This document shows positions 742-24,234 of a DNA stretch of 64,000 nt, one piece after another (position 1 is the first letter of the stretch; each line of letters begins with the position of its first letter). Below the pieces are notes generated by a model. It had not been told where the DNA came from. It was given only the letters and a program-made list of their open reading frames with translations, and searched no databases. Location of the stretch: NCBI RefSeq assembly GCF_012524075.1, contig NZ_JAAZUI010000004.1:62001-126000 (forward strand). The letters are read 5' to 3'. Origin of the DNA: Lutibacter sp. B1 (lineage in GTDB: Bacteria; Bacteroidota; Bacteroidia; Flavobacteriales; Flavobacteriaceae). Both the position numbers and the translations under genes were made by a program.

Positions 742-2295
742 TTACAGATCGAATTTAATACCCTGCGCTAAAGGCAACTCTGTAGTATAATTTATGGTAT
801 TAGTTTGGCGTCTCATGTAAATTTTCCAAGCATCAGAACCCGATTCTCTTCCGCCACCTGTTTCTTTTTCACCTCCAAATGCACCTCCAATTTCAGCGCC
901 AGACGTTCCAATGTTAACATTAGCAATTCCACAATCTGATCCTGTTTGAGATAAGAATTTTTCTGCTTCACGTAAATTATTGGTCATAATAGCAGAAGAT
1001 AATCCTTGAACAACTCCATTTTGAATTTCAATGGCATTATCAACATCACCAGAGTATTTTAATAAATATAAAATAGGAGCAAATGTTTCGTGTTGCACTA
1101 TTTTATAATGATTTTCAGCTTCAACAATGGCAGGTTTAACATAGCAACCACTTTCATATCCTTTACCGCTTAAAACACCTCCTTCAACCAAAATAGTTCC
1201 TCCTTCTTCCACAACTTTAATCAAAGCATCTTCATACATTTTAACAGCATCTTTATCTATCAAAGGTCCAACATGATTTTTGGCATCAAGCGGATTTCCT
1301 ATACGTAACTGTTTGTACGCATCAACCAGAGCATTTTTAAGTTTATCATATATTGATTCGTGAATAATTAATCTTCGAGTTGAAGTACAGCGTTGACCTG
1401 CAGTACCAACGGCACCGAAAACCGCTCCAATAATTGTCATTTTAATATCAGCATCAGGTGTTACAATAATTGCATTGTTTCCTCCTAATTCTAAAAGCGA
1501 TTTTCCTAAGCGTTCTGCTACTGTTTTTGCAACAATTTTACCCATTCTAATAGAGCCTGTAGCTGAAATTAGTGGAATATTTTTATCGGCAGTCATAAAC
1601 TCTCCTACCCTATAATCACCGTTAATTATGTTAGAAATACCTTCAGGTAAATTATTTTCTTTTAGTATTTCAGCAATTATATTTTGACAAGCAATACTGC
1701 ATAGTGGTGCTTTTTCTGAAGCTTTCCAAATGCAAACATCACCAGAAATCCAAGCTAACGCAGTATTCCAACTCCACACAGCAACAGGAAAGTTAAAAGC
1801 TGAGATAATACCAACAATGCCTAATGGATGGTATTGATCGTACATTCTATGTCCCGGACGTTCAGAATGCATTGTAAAACCGTGTAATTGACGAGATAAA
1901 CCAACGGCAAAGTCGCAAATGTCAATCATTTCTTGTACTTCACCCAATCCTTCTTGCAACGATTTTCCCATTTCATATGAAACTAATTCACCTAAAGGTT
2001 GTTTAAGTTCTCTAAGTTTTTCACCAAATTGACGTACAATTTCACCTCGTTGAGGGGCAGGTTTTAATCGCCAAGTTTTAAATGCAGTTTGGGCAGTTTC
2101 TATTACTTTGGTATAATCTTCTTTAGTTGTAGTAGTTATTTTGCCTATTAATTTTCCATCAACAGGAGAATATGATTCAATAATTTCACCATTCCCAAAA
2201 AAATCATTGCCTGTAGATGTTCCTTTATTTATGTCTTTTACGCCTAATTTGTTTAAGGCATCTTGTATTGTTTTTGTAGTTGTTTCTATTTCCAT
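742..2295 (-). CDS. aldehyde dehydrogenase, ALDH7 (aminoadipate-semialdehyde) type
   Basis: This is a full-length NAD-dependent aldehyde dehydrogenase of 517 residues. The N-terminal half carries the cofactor-binding fold with SAFNFPVAVWSWN. The general-base glutamate is in LELGGNN and the catalytic cysteine in GTAGQRCTSTRR, near residue 300. This GQRCT-S/T-TRR context is characteristic of ALDH7 (antiquitin, bacterial AmaB/Pcd), which oxidises L-2-aminoadipate 6-semialdehyde/piperideine-6-carboxylate in lysine breakdown. The family assignment is strong; the substrate is inferred. No other lysine-catabolic gene is visible nearby. The gene is monocistronic, with its own -7 box upstream and a terminator on each side. 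Confidence 0.93.
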   Translation of the reverse strand: MEIETTTKTIQDALNKLGVKDINKGTSTGNDFFGNGEIIESYSPVDGKLIGKITTTTKEDYTKVIETAQTAFKTWRLKPAPQRGEIVRQFGEKLRELKQPLGELVSYEMGKSLQEGLGEVQEMIDICDFAVGLSRQLHGFTMHSERPGHRMYDQYHPLGIVGIISAFNFPVAVWSWNTALAWISGDVCIWKASEKAPLCSIACQNIIAEILKENNLPEGISNIINGDYRVGEFMTADKNIPLISATGSIRMGKIVAKTVAERLGKSLLELGGNNAIIVTPDADIKMTIIGAVFGAVGTAGQRCTSTRRLIIHESIYDKLKNALVDAYKQLRIGNPLDAKNHVGPLIDKDAVKMYEDALIKVVEEGGTILVEGGVLSGKGYESGCYVKPAIVEAENHYKIVQHETFAPILYLLKYSGDVDNAIEIQNGVVQGLSSAIMTNNLREAEKFLSQTGSDCGIANVNIGTSGAEIGGAFGGEKETGGGRESGSDAWKIYMRRQTNTINYTTELPLAQGIKFDL

Positions 2296-2322
2296 GATAT
2301 GGATTTTTATATATGATTCTTA

Positions 2323-2330
2323 CAAATTTA
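2323..2330 (-). promoter_or_regulatory. -7 promoter element of the aldehyde dehydrogenase gene
   Basis: On the minus strand this reads TAAATTTG, matching the Bacteroidota consensus TAnnTTTG, and leaves a leader of about 24 nt before the ATG. I see no convincing -33 TTTG. Confidence 0.5.
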
Positions 2331-2345
2331 CAAATAAAATGTGTT

Positions 2346-2382
2346 AAAAAAGGAAAGCCGTTTCAAATTTGAAACGGCTTTC
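2346..2382 (-). terminator. terminator of the sigma/anti-sigma operon
   Basis: Inverted repeat GAAAGCCGTTTC / GAAACGGCTTTC (2353-2382). On the minus strand it is followed by CCTTTTTT, just after the stop of the beta-barrel gene. Confidence 0.85.
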
Positions 2383-2421
2383 TTCATTCAATATTTGGTA
2401 ACCAACCAAATAATAAACCAA

Positions 2422-3630
2422 CTAAAACTTATAATTTAAACCCGTATAAACTCCTAAGTAATACGGTTGAAAACTCCCGGAGTTTTTTGAAAAGGTATTA
2501 GTCTGAACTTTAAACATAGGTGATATATTTATATAAAAGTTTTTCTTGATTGAATAATCTATATCTATTCCAATATTTCCACTAAAATTAAGATCTCTTA
2601 AATTATTTGAAGATCCTAAACTTTGACTAAAACTGTTGGTTTCAATAAAAACTTCGTCTCTATTTAAAAGTAATGTACTAAAACCTCCAACTAAATTTAC
2701 CCCTAATTTACCATCAGTTACACTGTATTTTATTTCAACAGGTATTTCAATATAGCCAAAAACCTGATTTAAACTACCAACATTATCCTCTACTAAATTA
2801 GAATTTGCGGCTTGTGAAGACTTTGCATTTTCTGTTCTGGCAACTACAGGATTAGTAGATAAATTTGAAAAACCGACAACGGCAACGCCCGGAGTTACGT
2901 AAACATTATTAGTTTTGTAACCCAAATTAATAAGGTTAACGCCTGATTGTAAACTGAATTTATTAGTAATTTGATAAGCAAATTTTACGCCGTAAGAGTA
3001 TGAAGAACTTATAGATGTAGGATTGTTTTTAAATTGTTCATCAATACCCGATCCATCTCCAAATGAGTTAAAATATATAGGAGCAAATATAGTTGCTACA
3101 GTAAATTTACTTTCTTTAACACTTTCTTTTTCTGGACTTTCAATGCTATTAATATCTTTAAGAGGTAAATTTTTTGTGTCTGCCAACAAATTATTTGTTA
3201 TGGTTTTTTTATTAAATGTAGTTTCTTTTTCAAGTTCGGTTTGTTTATTTTCTACATTAGTAAGTTTCTCTTCCTTAAAGGTTTTAATATTATCTATTTT
3301 TTGTAATTTTTTTGTAGTTGGGCTTATTTTATTTTGTGAATTTGTATCAACAGAATCTTTATCATTAATAATTTCATTAGGGTTGTCAATTTTAGACATC
3401 AAATTTTTGGTGAAATTATTTTCAGGTATAAAGTAAATTGCTCCAACGGTAAAAAGTAACATTAAAACAGCAGCAATACTAGATAACTTTACCCAAATAG
3501 GTATGCGTTTCTTTTTTGGGGTCGAACTTAATCTTTTTTCAATAGCATCCCAAGATTTATTAGGTGGGAAAACTTCAAAATCTTTTAAGTTTTCTTGAAA
3601 AATTCTATCAATATTTTTATAATCTCTCAC
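2422..3630 (-). CDS. putative dual-membrane-spanning anti-sigma factor with outer-membrane beta-barrel
   Basis: The 402-residue protein has an unusual order of parts. Residues 1-46 are soluble and basic and look cytoplasmic (FPPNKSWDAIEKRL, then KKKR). Residues about 47-68 form one hydrophobic helix. Residues about 69-180 are a Lys/Glu/Asn/Thr-rich linker of low complexity. Residues about 181-402 are alternating amphipathic strands of a PorT/OMP_b-brl-type barrel ending in a terminal Phe (GLNYKF). There is no N-terminal signal peptide, so the helix should stay in the inner membrane while the barrel sits in the outer membrane. It lies 14 bp after an ECF sigma factor gene in one operon. The layout matches the Dma (dual membrane-spanning anti-sigma) proteins described in Bacteroides. 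The role as anti-sigma factor is inferred from layout and neighbour. Confidence 0.75.
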   Translation of the reverse strand: MRDYKNIDRIFQENLKDFEVFPPNKSWDAIEKRLSSTPKKKRIPIWVKLSSIAAVLMLLFTVGAIYFIPENNFTKNLMSKIDNPNEIINDKDSVDTNSQNKISPTTKKLQKIDNIKTFKEEKLTNVENKQTELEKETTFNKKTITNNLLADTKNLPLKDINSIESPEKESVKESKFTVATIFAPIYFNSFGDGSGIDEQFKNNPTSISSSYSYGVKFAYQITNKFSLQSGVNLINLGYKTNNVYVTPGVAVVGFSNLSTNPVVARTENAKSSQAANSNLVEDNVGSLNQVFGYIEIPVEIKYSVTDGKLGVNLVGGFSTLLLNRDEVFIETNSFSQSLGSSNNLRDLNFSGNIGIDIDYSIKKNFYINISPMFKVQTNTFSKNSGSFQPYYLGVYTGLNYKF

Positions 3631-3644
3631 AACTCTCTTTTATC

Positions 3645-4181
3645 TTAAATAGATTGTCGATCTTGTTGATGCAATTCAATCTTTTGTTTTAAAATAGCTC
3701 TTGCTCTGGCCAAATTAGATTTGGATGTACCCTCGGCAATGCGCAACATTCCGGAAATCTCTTTATGAGAAAACCCATCTAAAACATAAAGGTTAAAAAC
3801 CAATCTGTACCTTTCGGGTAACTCAGTTATGAGATTTAACAAAAAATCTAAAGAAATTGCTTCATCATCAACATCAACAACCACTTCATCGGGTATCTCT
3901 TCAGTAACAATATTTAATACATTTTTTTGTCGATACTTTAACAAAATTGTATTTACCATAACACGCTTTAGCCAACCTTCAAATGATCCTTTGAATTTAA
4001 ACTGCCCAATTTTATCAAATATGGTTATAAAACCGTCTTGAAAATTATCTTGAGCCTCTTGTCTATTTCTAGAATATTTCAGGCATATCGAAAACAACTT
4101 ACCCGCAAAAAGCTGGTAAATTTCTTTTTGTGCTTTTCGATCATTATTAGCACATTGTTTTATGAGTTTATTTAAACTCAA
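3645..4181 (-). CDS. ECF-type RNA polymerase sigma factor
   Basis: This 178-residue protein has the two-domain ECF layout. Sigma region 2 spans about residues 20-90 (YSRNRQEAQDNFQDGFITIF, FKFKGSFEGWLKRVMVNT) and region 4 about 115-170 (LPERYRLVFNLYVLDGFSHK followed by an HTH). The start is TTG at 4181; no ATG precedes the conserved N-terminus, which matches family length. It is the first gene of an operon with the trans-envelope anti-sigma-like protein, which probably holds it inactive until an envelope signal arrives. The gene is divergent from the LuxE-like gene with about 90 bp between them. I could not identify its target promoters. Confidence 0.93.
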   Translation of the reverse strand: MSLNKLIKQCANNDRKAQKEIYQLFAGKLFSICLKYSRNRQEAQDNFQDGFITIFDKIGQFKFKGSFEGWLKRVMVNTILLKYRQKNVLNIVTEEIPDEVVVDVDDEAISLDFLLNLITELPERYRLVFNLYVLDGFSHKEISGMLRIAEGTSKSNLARARAILKQKIELHQQDRQSI

Positions 4182-4243
4182 ATGCTAGCGTTTTAATTGT
4201 TAATAAGATACCTAAAAAGACAATAGGTTGCGTAAATTTACAT

Positions 4244-4251
4244 TACTTTTG
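4244..4251 (+). promoter_or_regulatory. -7 promoter element of the LuxE-like gene
   Basis: TACTTTTG fits TAnnTTTG exactly, 18 nt before the ATG at 4270. A TTG at 4228-4230 is closer than the usual -33 spacing. Confidence 0.5.
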
Positions 4252-4269
4252 CAATGATTCCCAATTTTT

Positions 4270-5247
4270 ATGAAAATAAACAATATTTTTAATAATACTA
4301 TAATTGATAATTTTGAAGATGCTGCACTTGAAATATTTCGATTTCAAGCAAAAAATAATAGTGTTTATAATGAATTTTTAAATCATTTAAAAGTTGATAT
4401 AAATGAAGTAAAGCAATTAAATCAAATTCCTTTTTTACCAATACAGTTTTTTAAATCGCACCAAATTCTTTCTTCCAAAGAAAAAATTCAACAAGTTTTT
4501 TTAAGTAGTGGAACTACAGGGAGTGAGCAAAGTAAGCATTATGTTACAGATTTAAAGATTTATAAAAACAGTTTTACAAAAGGCTTTGAACTTTTTTACG
4601 GACCAATTAAAAATTACACTGTTTTAGCTTTATTGCCTTCTTATTTAGAAAGAGAAGGTTCTTCATTAATATATATGGTTGATAATTTTATTAAAAAATC
4701 AAACAACCCAAAAAGTGATTTTTATCTAAACAATTTAGACGAATTATACACAACTTTAACTGAGTTGGATACTGCAAATGAAAAAGTATTGCTTATTGGT
4801 GTTTCTTTTGCTTTGTTGGATTTGGTTGAGAGCTATAAATTCAACTTAAAAAATACAATTGTAATGGAAACGGGCGGTATGAAAGGCAGAAGAAAGGAAT
4901 TAATTCGAGAAGAATTACATAAAATTTTATGTGAAGGTTTTGGCGTTGAAAAAATTCATTCGGAATATGGAATGACAGAATTGTTGAGTCAGGCGTATTC
5001 TAAAGGAGACGGAATTTTTCAATGCCCACCTTGGATGAAAGTGATGACTAGAGATACCGAAGATGCGCTTACACTTTTACCTAACGGAAAATCAGGAGGA
5101 ATAAATGTAATTGATTTGGCAAATATAAACTCATGCTCTTTTATTGCTACGCAAGATTTAGGTAAAGTTTATGCAAACAATACTTTCGAAATTATTGGCC
5201 GTTTTGATAATTCTGATATCAGAGGCTGTAATTTAATGGTACTTTAA
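4270..5247 (+). CDS. LuxE-family acyl-protein synthetase / acyltransferase
   Basis: The 325-residue product matches the LuxE/PaaK branch of the adenylate-forming superfamily. It has the phosphate-binding loop VFLSSGTTGSEQSKH near residue 80, an acyl-site region ETGGMKGRRKEL, and the EYGMTELLSQAY motif near residue 235. LuxE proteins activate a carboxylic acid as acyl-AMP and pass the acyl group to a cysteine. No luxCDAB or phenylacetate gene is nearby, so the substrate is unknown; a role in making a lipid or modified surface compound is only a guess. It faces a convergent lipoprotein gene 2 bp away, with no terminator between them. Divergent from the sigma factor gene. Confidence 0.85.
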   Translation: MKINNIFNNTIIDNFEDAALEIFRFQAKNNSVYNEFLNHLKVDINEVKQLNQIPFLPIQFFKSHQILSSKEKIQQVFLSSGTTGSEQSKHYVTDLKIYKNSFTKGFELFYGPIKNYTVLALLPSYLEREGSSLIYMVDNFIKKSNNPKSDFYLNNLDELYTTLTELDTANEKVLLIGVSFALLDLVESYKFNLKNTIVMETGGMKGRRKELIREELHKILCEGFGVEKIHSEYGMTELLSQAYSKGDGIFQCPPWMKVMTRDTEDALTLLPNGKSGGINVIDLANINSCSFIATQDLGKVYANNTFEIIGRFDNSDIRGCNLMVL

Positions 5248-23262: not shown

Positions 23263-24234
23263 ATGTCGTTTATTGAGCCTATTTTAAAAGAAAATAAAGA
23301 TCGATTTGTAATTTTTCCTATTCAACACCAAGATATTTGGGAATGGTATAAAAAGCAAGAAGCCAGTATTTGGACTGCCGAAGAAATTGATTTACATCAA
23401 GATGTAATAGATTGGGAATCAAAATTAAATGATGACGAACGTTATTTTATAAAACATGTATTGGCATTTTTTGCTGCTTCAGACGGTATTGTAAATGAAA
23501 ATTTAGCCGAGAATTTTGTAAGCGAAGTACAATATACTGAAGCTAAATTCTTTTACGGTTTTCAAATAATGATGGAAAATATTCATTCTGAAGTTTATTC
23601 ATTATTAATTGACACCTATGTTAAAAATGAAGTAGAAAAAAGTCAGTTATTTAAGGCAATAGAAGTTTTTCCTGCCATAAAGGAAAAAGCAGAATGGGCT
23701 TTAAAATGGATTGACAGCCCTAATTTTTCTGAACGATTGATTGCATTTGCAGCTGTAGAAGGAATCTTTTTTTCAGGTAGTTTTTGTTCTATATTTTGGT
23801 TGAAAAAAAGAGGGCTGATGCCTGGATTAACATTTTCTAACGAACTTATTTCTCGTGATGAAGGATTGCATTGCGATTTTGCAGTGCACTTACACAATAA
23901 TCATATTGTAAACAAAGTACCTAAAGAACGTATTACTGAAATTTTAACTAATGCTTTAGACATAGAGCGTTCATTTATTACGGAATCTCTTCCTGTTAGT
24001 TTAATTGGAATGAACGCAAAATTAATGACACAGTATCTGGAATTTGTAACAGATAGATTATTGGTTGAATTTGGTTGTGAAAAGGTTTATAATTCAACAA
24101 ATCCTTTTGATTTTATGGAAATGATTTCTTTAGAAGGAAAAACAAACTTTTTTGAGAAACGTGTTTCCGATTATCAAAAAGCAGGCGTTAAAAGTGGTGG
24201 TACAGGAAATATAAGTTTCGACGCAGATTTTTAG
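23263..24234 (+). CDS. nrdB: ribonucleotide reductase class I, small (beta) subunit
   Basis: The 323-residue R2 subunit holds the di-iron centre and the tyrosyl radical that start deoxynucleotide synthesis. Metal ligands are visible in [30 protein letters not shown] (the radical Tyr is in FFYGFQ), [13 protein letters not shown] and [15 protein letters not shown]. The pattern is like that of eukaryotic R2 with an active tyrosine, so class Ia rather than the tyrosine-less Ic type. It is followed by nrdA after 133 bp that contain an 8-bp inverted repeat (ATTCAAAT/ATTTGAAT at 24258-24265 and 24287-24294). Confidence 0.96.

Follow-up and report, generated by a model that had tools for sequence, protein, structure and literature searches.

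A probable trans-envelope ECF sigma/anti-sigma switch of Dma design in Lutibacter sp. B1, with a predicted promoter and targets across its family

A 64,000-nt stretch of the Lutibacter sp. B1 genome (assembly GCF_012524075.1, contig NZ_JAAZUI010000004.1, positions 62,001 to 126,000; referred to here as the window, and the genome as G000) carries a two-gene operon in which the gene for an extracytoplasmic function (ECF) sigma factor is followed by the gene for a protein whose single chain is predicted to run from the cytoplasm to the outer membrane. It is probable, in our view, that the pair works as an ECF sigma/anti-sigma switch across the envelope, built on the Dma (Reo) design and driving a regulon through a promoter motif. 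The architecture, the pairing, the promoter, the genes behind that promoter and the start codons can be read from the DNA itself; by architecture the pair is a real member of a young family, not new in kind, and what seems new is the flavobacterial promoter, its predicted lipoprotein and micro-ORF (very short open reading frame, ORF) targets, a lipoprotein partner gene and a conserved non-AUG start of the sigma gene. An earlier note on this DNA had placed the pair as a flavobacterial member of the Dma design, and this placement holds as far as sequence can tell: the four-part design given in the available text of PMC13088901 is present, and every locus read has an ECF sigma gene next to the gene for the barrel protein. 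Points beyond that note are the promoter, what relatives show (a predicted regulon and a lipoprotein partner gene) and another pair of this design in the genome.

The gene pair and the layout of the barrel protein

The sigma factor gene (3645..4181, minus strand) encodes 178 aa from a TTG start codon, and its product matches Pfam Sigma70_r2 (2.2e-11) and Sigma70_r4_2 (5.5e-15); among the 25 NCBIfam matches listed, only the ECF superfamily passes its cut-off. A gap of 14 nt separates the sigma stop codon from the GTG start of the Dma-type anti-sigma candidate (2422..3630, minus strand; 402 aa). The coordinates and reading frames that the earlier note gave for the pair (2422-4181), including the TTG start, are correct. 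Its description of the second protein as a short cytoplasmic domain, one helix, a disordered linker and a barrel ending in Phe agrees with hydropathy, an AlphaFold2 model, Pfam and fold comparison.

Residues 1-44 (3499..3630, minus strand) form a cytoplasmic two-helix domain, recognized by the conserved pattern KNIDRxFQExxKDFExxPxxxxWxxIExxL in the alignment and by helices in the model; this domain would be the sigma-binding part. It is followed by the inner-membrane helix, residues 45-67 (3430..3498, minus strand), identified by hydropathy and the model as the one standout hydrophobic segment of the protein (Kyte-Doolittle 2.22 over 19 residues; runner-up 1.04). A single hydrophobic segment with preceding basic residues recurs in 20/20 aligned sequences, window protein included, and these basic residues indicate an N-inside orientation. 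Since about 44 conserved hydrophilic residues precede it, the helix is unlike a cleavable signal peptide, and by hydropathy none that could be cleaved is apparent in the 20 aligned sequences, in keeping with the note's claim that the protein has no signal peptide. Residues 68-172 (3115..3429, minus strand) make up the disordered periplasmic tether, with pLDDT below 50 and a length that is conserved as the sequence diverges; in the window protein it measures about 106 residues, of which 71% are K, E, N, Q, S, T or D. The rest of the chain, residues 173-402 (2425..3114, minus strand), is predicted from Pfam, the model and a fold match to be an eight-strand outer-membrane beta-barrel ending in ..GLNYKF, and Pfam OMP_b-brl_2 covers residues ~204-368 (1.9e-8).

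AlphaFold2 was run on the 402-aa protein alone from a 20-sequence alignment (model residue n is protein residue n+1), and returned helices, a long low-confidence stretch and eight strands. In model numbering, helices span 4-15, 23-33 and 44-66, with a low-confidence helix at 112-131; pLDDT is below 50 over 66-171 and 248-277; and eight long strands lie past residue 175, most blocks having pLDDT 76-93. Comparison of the barrel part (172-401) by VIA-align with OmpA, OmpW, NspA and OprF structures gave Z 16-18. OmpA/OmpW-like barrels keep both their N- and C-termini on the periplasmic side, which is what attachment of the tether requires.

The design is widely conserved. The anti-sigma candidate is present in 34/36 other genomes of the genus (in G001, one of the two misses, the operon promoter lies near a contig end) and in 38/45 genera of the family, searched with one genome per genus at 1e-8 and every candidate scored, with all best matches below 1e-19. 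A sigma gene stands directly upstream of the barrel gene in all of loci L001-L052, among which several genomes are present twice, and in 30/30 of loci L060-L089; conserved pairing with ECF sigma genes, for which the note had proposed a search, is thus borne out. The terminal residue is Phe in 96/96 complete barrel-protein frames (some genomes counted twice). In one Lutibacter metagenome-assembled genome (MAG; L016/L046), a single in-frame stop breaks the barrel-protein gene. The tether is the least conserved part of the protein, with 30% mean identity among 15 Lutibacter sequences versus 69-78% for the protein's other parts, and yet its length has a floor: it is at least 105 residues in 78/79 distinct sequences and 102 in the remaining one, spanning 105-112 in the 29 distinct Lutibacter sequences (the window's included) and 102-253 in other taxa (n=50). 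A floor near 100 residues would be consistent with a need to span the periplasm, for which the linker is, on paper, long enough, as the note had stated.

The N-terminal domain reaches further than this protein. Profile searches across the order and the class, in which up to 19 and 14 candidates respectively were scored per genome so that counts are lower bounds, used an alignment (A4) that includes the window protein and its paralogue L057, both of which match by construction. In the order-wide sample at least 46 same-family genomes match at 1e-4, with four misses among those listed; 14 of the 46 matches are weak (1e-7 to 1e-9), 13 of them in group g21, in which 9/25 genomes have a strong match. 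The weak matches probably come from other architectures. Class-wide, at least 241/395 genomes match, in open frames from ~100 (some cut by contig ends) to more than 800 residues, and because these frames differ so widely in length the domain is probably also joined to other C-termini, which may mean one sigma-binding head for several kinds of sensor. The KNIDRLFQE..W..I domain was seen on proteins of ~240-290, 320-400 and 750-860 residues and more. The paralogue belongs to the second pair in the same genome, a sigma gene with a 468-aa-frame protein (L057/L101, contig C73, ~64981-66928); that protein reads MEDNFDKIL..PYNPEHWEMLI..KKKKDKKR, has one helix and a Pfam barrel, and has an orthologue in G013 (L131).

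A promoter upstream of the operon and the genes behind it

The predicted autoregulatory ECF promoter (4206..4233, minus strand) consists of a -35 element ACGCAACC (4226-4233), a 15-nt spacer and the -10 element TATCT (4206-4210); in the whole window, 4233-4206 is the sole exact match to ACGCAACC-N15-(C/T)ATCT. It lies within a ~62-bp block (4191..4252) between the sigma gene and a divergent LuxE-like gene that is near-invariant in the aligned Lutibacter loci and also contains the palindrome GTAAATTTAC (4232-4241). We had considered this block as an operator only, a view that was dropped for the promoter reading after comparison with relatives. The broader pattern NCGCAACC-N14..16-(C/T)(A/G)TC occurs within 1 kb upstream in 82/89 distinct sigma genes (29/30 in Lutibacter, 53/59 in others). 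In Lutibacter the motif ends 25-27 nt ahead of the sigma start codon; in other genera ACGCAACC, ~15 nt and (C/T)ATCT mostly stand upstream of an operon lipoprotein gene that precedes sigma.

A scan of 45 genomes of the family, one per genus, for ACGCAACC-N14..16-CATC found 142 sites versus 20 for the reversed pattern used as control. The sites track the protein: 37 genera have both, one has the protein only, one a site only and six neither (Fisher 6e-6); the protein-only genome carries the promoter with one mismatch, and in the site-only genome the site falls inside an ORF. The spacer, allowed to vary from 14 to 16, is exactly 15 in 112/116 sites that are not ORF-internal and in 14/26 that are, and a T that was not part of the pattern follows CATC in 114/116 and 11/26, respectively. 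This uniform spacer and the unrequested T indicate that most of the 116 sites behave as one promoter class, and the 26 ORF-internal sites are probably chance. From its position and co-occurrence, the promoter would be read by the sigma factor of the same operon. We weighed whether the Flavobacterium psychrophilum motif SM6, whose targets include one ECF/anti-sigma pair in the available text of PMC9723704, could be this promoter, and decided against it, as it differs at -10, with a CGT box, and its reported targets include type IX secretion genes. Among the titles and abstract starts listed by searches of the open literature, none reports the flavobacterial promoter or its targets.

Classed by what lies behind them, the 142 sites comprise 69 lipoprotein genes by rule, 26 ORF-internal sites, 15 micro-ORFs, seven genes of other kinds, four of which look like lipoproteins on inspection, and 25 sites with no near ORF of 60 residues. 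In an 83-site subset the lipoprotein rule with a first loosening of its lipobox (the 69 come from a second) is satisfied by 35/43 near ORFs versus 16/156 of the remaining ORFs in those loci (p 4e-19); with a stricter lipobox rule the figures are 22/43 and 7/156. Inspection by eye removed L237, L274 and L388 from the 69 and added L300, L315, L354 and L372, so that accepted lipoprotein genes stand behind 70/142 sites; at six of the 70 sites a long open frame, on one strand or the other, runs across the site. In these 70 proteins the commonest residues from the lipid Cys onward are C-S-x-D-D-D, and at least two of the six positions past it are acidic in 54/70 (figures with no control set). These starts are like the surface-export signals SDDDD and SDDFE of Bacteroides fragilis and Flavobacterium johnsoniae in the available text of PMC5080379, and the targets may thus be surface-exposed. 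A single-linkage cluster takes in 52/70 of them, which says little on relatedness because signal peptides were included; among ten target proteins scanned, single ones have LVIVD, receptor-L or DUF6970 domains.

Two conserved micro-ORFs are also part of the predicted output. One, of ~30 residues and ..NCKADGG type, lies behind the promoter in ten genera, and for the eight genera with both listed its distance from the operon's site is ~1.1-1.2 kb; its type is MKFFKxTIxxxxLGVSVxxxxNSNCKADGG (L269, L276, L285, L264, L296, L290, L256, L249, L365, L394), and L388 is a variant. The other, a single-helix peptide of 28-36 residues (..NLILLxFSVNK(K/R)TDP), has a 28-residue form ending ..FSVNK(K/R)TDP in five genera (L258, L266, L298, L302, L313) and, by eye, a longer variant in about seven more (L244, L344, L347, L349, L367, L375, L379). 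NCBIfam gave no match for the four micro-ORF peptides scanned. SusC-like receptors with a ~130-nt leader lie behind three sites (L247 and L273 by eye, L280 by Pfam).

The operon itself often includes a lipoprotein gene, found ahead of sigma in 24/29 loci of L061-L089 and downstream of the barrel gene in one more, with four lacking it, and found also in L045, L047 and L050, whose lipoproteins have no Pfam match above cut-off. A model built from three sequences is a beta-sandwich (mean pLDDT 74). Its match to the NigD C-terminal domain 3qwn (Z 5.7, rmsd 3.5, 98 residues) is tied with unrelated folds and too weak for the protein to be claimed as NigD.

Lutibacter seems, from the sites and genes present, to run a reduced version of the switch. 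When pattern sites without mismatches are counted in G000, two matches to the strict promoter lie outside ORFs with a gene behind: one before the operon and one (contig C77, promoter at 24220) before the gene for a 137-aa protein (L202:1561-1974) with no Pfam match above cut-off. By eye, that gene lies between cinA-like and FAH-type hydrolase-like genes, and it is promoter-linked in 5/5 Lutibacter genomes searched. The operon lipoprotein, sought in 45 genomes, was not found in G000; it occurs in 6/27 other genomes of the genus, with a strong match in three (G009, G020, G025), and the divergent record Lutibacter sp. NORP37 (L045) has the lipoprotein gene inside the operon. Because only these two clear promoters were found in G000, the predicted lipoprotein output belongs to relatives, with no sign of it so far in this strain.

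Start codons and surroundings of the operon

The sigma gene keeps a non-AUG start across most of the loci compared. At the aligned start of 89 distinct sigma genes we read TTG in 67, GTG in 11, ATC in five and ATG in six, so that 83/89 are non-AUG; TTG is found in 30/31 Lutibacter sigma genes. No ATG occurs from -30 to +15 codons in 77/89 sigma genes, and by comparison 17/239 other ORFs lack ATG in their first 45 codons, a comparison in which the windows are not identical. The ATC starts are those of L048:5453 and L049:5447 (Tenacibaculum), L068 and L081 (both of genus group g22) and L080 (another family); of these five genes, only L080 offers an ATG in the -30 to +15 codon range, at -12. L048, L049, L068 and L081 are also without the promoter within 1 kb. 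To our knowledge, ATC start codons are rare outside infC. For the barrel-protein gene, GTG is the start codon throughout the Lutibacter loci read, save that the divergent L045 has ATG.

The habit is wider than this operon. G000 has 12 Sigma70_r2 genes, and by eye 7/11 of its non-primary sigma genes (L090-L101) apparently lack an ATG start; several of these non-ATG starts are also non-ATG in orthologues of G012 or G013. Since other sigma genes of the genome share it, a non-ATG start is not specific to the pair, and the idea that TTG sets the pair apart was rejected. The earlier note's suggestion that the TTG start lowers the sigma level stands as a possibility: it may do so.

The operon is followed by an intrinsic-terminator-like hairpin of 13 pairs and CTTTTTT (2353..2382, minus strand), the one hairpin in a scan of 2250-4350, for which shuffles average 0.6. 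Downstream lies an aldehyde dehydrogenase gene (742-2295, minus strand), and the divergent LuxE-like gene upstream occupies 4270-5247 (plus strand). By eye L045, L047, L048 and L049 have both neighbours close to the pair as well, so the neighbourhood looks old; in L050 recA stands upstream in place of the LuxE-like gene.

Proposed mechanism, alternatives and known systems

For sigma binding, membrane insertion, the cue and the release step, we infer the following from the layout. The barrel would be inserted in the outer membrane, with the disordered tether across the periplasm and the single helix in the inner membrane, and the two-helix N-terminus would keep sigma inactive at the membrane. 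When the barrel or the outer membrane is disturbed (by failed barrel assembly, damage or a ligand), the hold on sigma would be broken, perhaps via cleavage or loss of the inner part, and the released sigma would transcribe ACGCAACC-N15-(C/T)ATCT promoters: that of its own operon and, family-wide, mostly those of genes for surface-exposed-looking lipoproteins, plus the two micro-ORFs. Positive autoregulation may be offset by the weak non-AUG start, which would hold sigma below anti-sigma. Reporting of the outer-membrane state is proposed by analogy, on the basis of what has been put forward for EcfO-Reo and of the predicted lipoprotein targets in relatives.

Several observations weigh against the trans-envelope switch with a motif-driven regulon. 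Overall AlphaFold2 confidence for the barrel protein is moderate (mean pLDDT 62.6, pTM 0.48). The motif was not found within 1 kb for 7/89 sigma genes (L007, a variant; four Tenacibaculum-type loci; L066; L079), and the 142 sites include the 26 inside ORFs and 25 without a near ORF of 60 residues. Neither promoter target in the window's own genome is a lipoprotein, and of five Lutibacter genomes only G036 has lipoprotein genes (two) behind the motif; a broad regulon drawn from a looser pattern was rejected, the same five genomes giving 25 sites versus 23 for the reversed control.

The alternatives concern the cue, the fate of the chain, the reader of the promoter and the place of the barrel. 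The cue could be a nutrient or glycan at the outer loops of the barrel rather than outer-membrane damage, as glycan sensing is proposed for Dma2 in the available text of PMC13088901 and as the three SusC-like receptors behind promoter sites might suggest. We think this unlikely, though not strongly so: small lipoproteins are the commonest predicted targets, no SusC/SusD-like gene is evident by eye among the listed neighbours of five loci, and EcfO-Reo is induced by antibacterial toxins, with outer-membrane stress proposed by its authors. It is less likely still that cleavage follows shortly upon insertion, leaving an ordinary one-helix anti-sigma and a small barrel to work separately, with the length of the chain serving as an export route and not to carry a signal. 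A tether that is predicted to be disordered, lysine-rich and fast-evolving would be accessible to proteases, but its length is held despite divergence, never falling below 102 residues among the 79 sequences, and N-terminus and barrel share one frame in the loci read, bar the one MAG with a stop.

We give little credence to the idea that ACGCAACC-N15-CATCT belongs to another regulator and that the sigma gene merely lies behind the motif. Binding of the motif by sigma is only predicted, in a genome with 11 further Sigma70_r2 genes, but the motif precedes sigma in all but seven of the 89 loci and tracks the anti-sigma gene across 45 genera, and autoregulation is usual for ECF factors. That the barrel only resembles an outer-membrane protein and stays in the periplasm, anchored to the inner membrane, is highly improbable: its insertion in the outer membrane is only predicted, but its fold matches outer-membrane barrels, its terminal Phe is invariant, and the same design is taken as an outer-membrane barrel in the available text of PMC9308784 and PMC13088901.

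Building on the trans-envelope switch, one may picture a family-wide, one-protein counterpart of enterobacterial sigma-E in which the tether sets the threshold, an initiation-factor-sensitive start (TTG, GTG or even ATC) limits the amount of sigma, and the cell responds with a coat of surface lipoproteins and with two microproteins (the 30-residue ..NSNCKADGG and the 28-36-residue single-helix peptide) acting back on the envelope; this we offer tentatively, as a possibility with the odds against it.

In the RpoE-RseA-DegS system of E. coli, the condition of the outer membrane is relayed to an ECF sigma factor by several proteins in a proteolytic relay; the likeness is outer-membrane-to-ECF signalling, and the difference is that the window pair would use one chain reaching both membranes. 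FecIRA-type signalling likewise connects an outer-membrane barrel to an ECF sigma factor, but in that case barrel and anti-sigma are two proteins that touch, whereas here they are one protein.

The closest relatives by design are Dma1/Das1 and Dma2/Das2 of Bacteroides thetaiotaomicron, in which, according to the available text of PMC13088901, Dma1 and Dma2 affect vesicles. By description they share with the window pair a single inner-membrane helix, a long disordered tether, a C-terminal barrel and an adjoining ECF sigma gene. The Dma N-terminus binds sigma, and the window protein has at that place the conserved two-helix domain that presumably does the same. Dma sigma factors are of the ECF21 group and loss of Dma raises vesicle formation, whereas the window pair is placed by architecture; to the flavobacterial side we add a promoter, an operon lipoprotein and micro-ORFs. 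Reo of Phocaeicola vulgatus, as given in the available text of PMC9308784 and PMC13114119, spans from cytoplasm to surface and is induced by antibacterial toxins, with outer-membrane stress as the proposed cue, and EcfO turns on NigD surface lipoproteins. EcfO-Reo (P. vulgatus, B. fragilis) is alike in its cytoplasm-to-surface anti-sigma, and its surface-lipoprotein regulon has a counterpart predicted in relatives, though neither target in G000 is a lipoprotein; it differs in that the predicted flavobacterial targets are mostly lipoproteins other than NigD, the operon lipoprotein being weakly like the NigD C-terminal domain.

The switch may also bear on an unexplained rise of surface lipoproteins in TamL-depleted F. 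johnsoniae, if that species or its relatives use it: in the available text of PMC12045153, 31/47 outer-membrane lipoproteins are up, including 13/16 of the surface-exposed ones, with large vesicles, and a stress response is suggested. Because 13/25 sampled genomes of g21 (possibly Flavobacterium; its largest genomes included) match the N-terminal profile weakly, we take this result as a lead and do not count it as support.

Dma and Reo were described in gut Bacteroidales, and their cue and targets have been worked out only in part. For the flavobacterial members, two conserved micro-ORFs can now be named and the non-AUG sigma start appears as a conserved trait. With so sharp a promoter, candidate targets are readable from sequence in 37 of the 38 genera that have the protein, which makes the targets of a trans-envelope anti-sigma factor, and the question of why they are lipoproteins, directly testable outside the gut.

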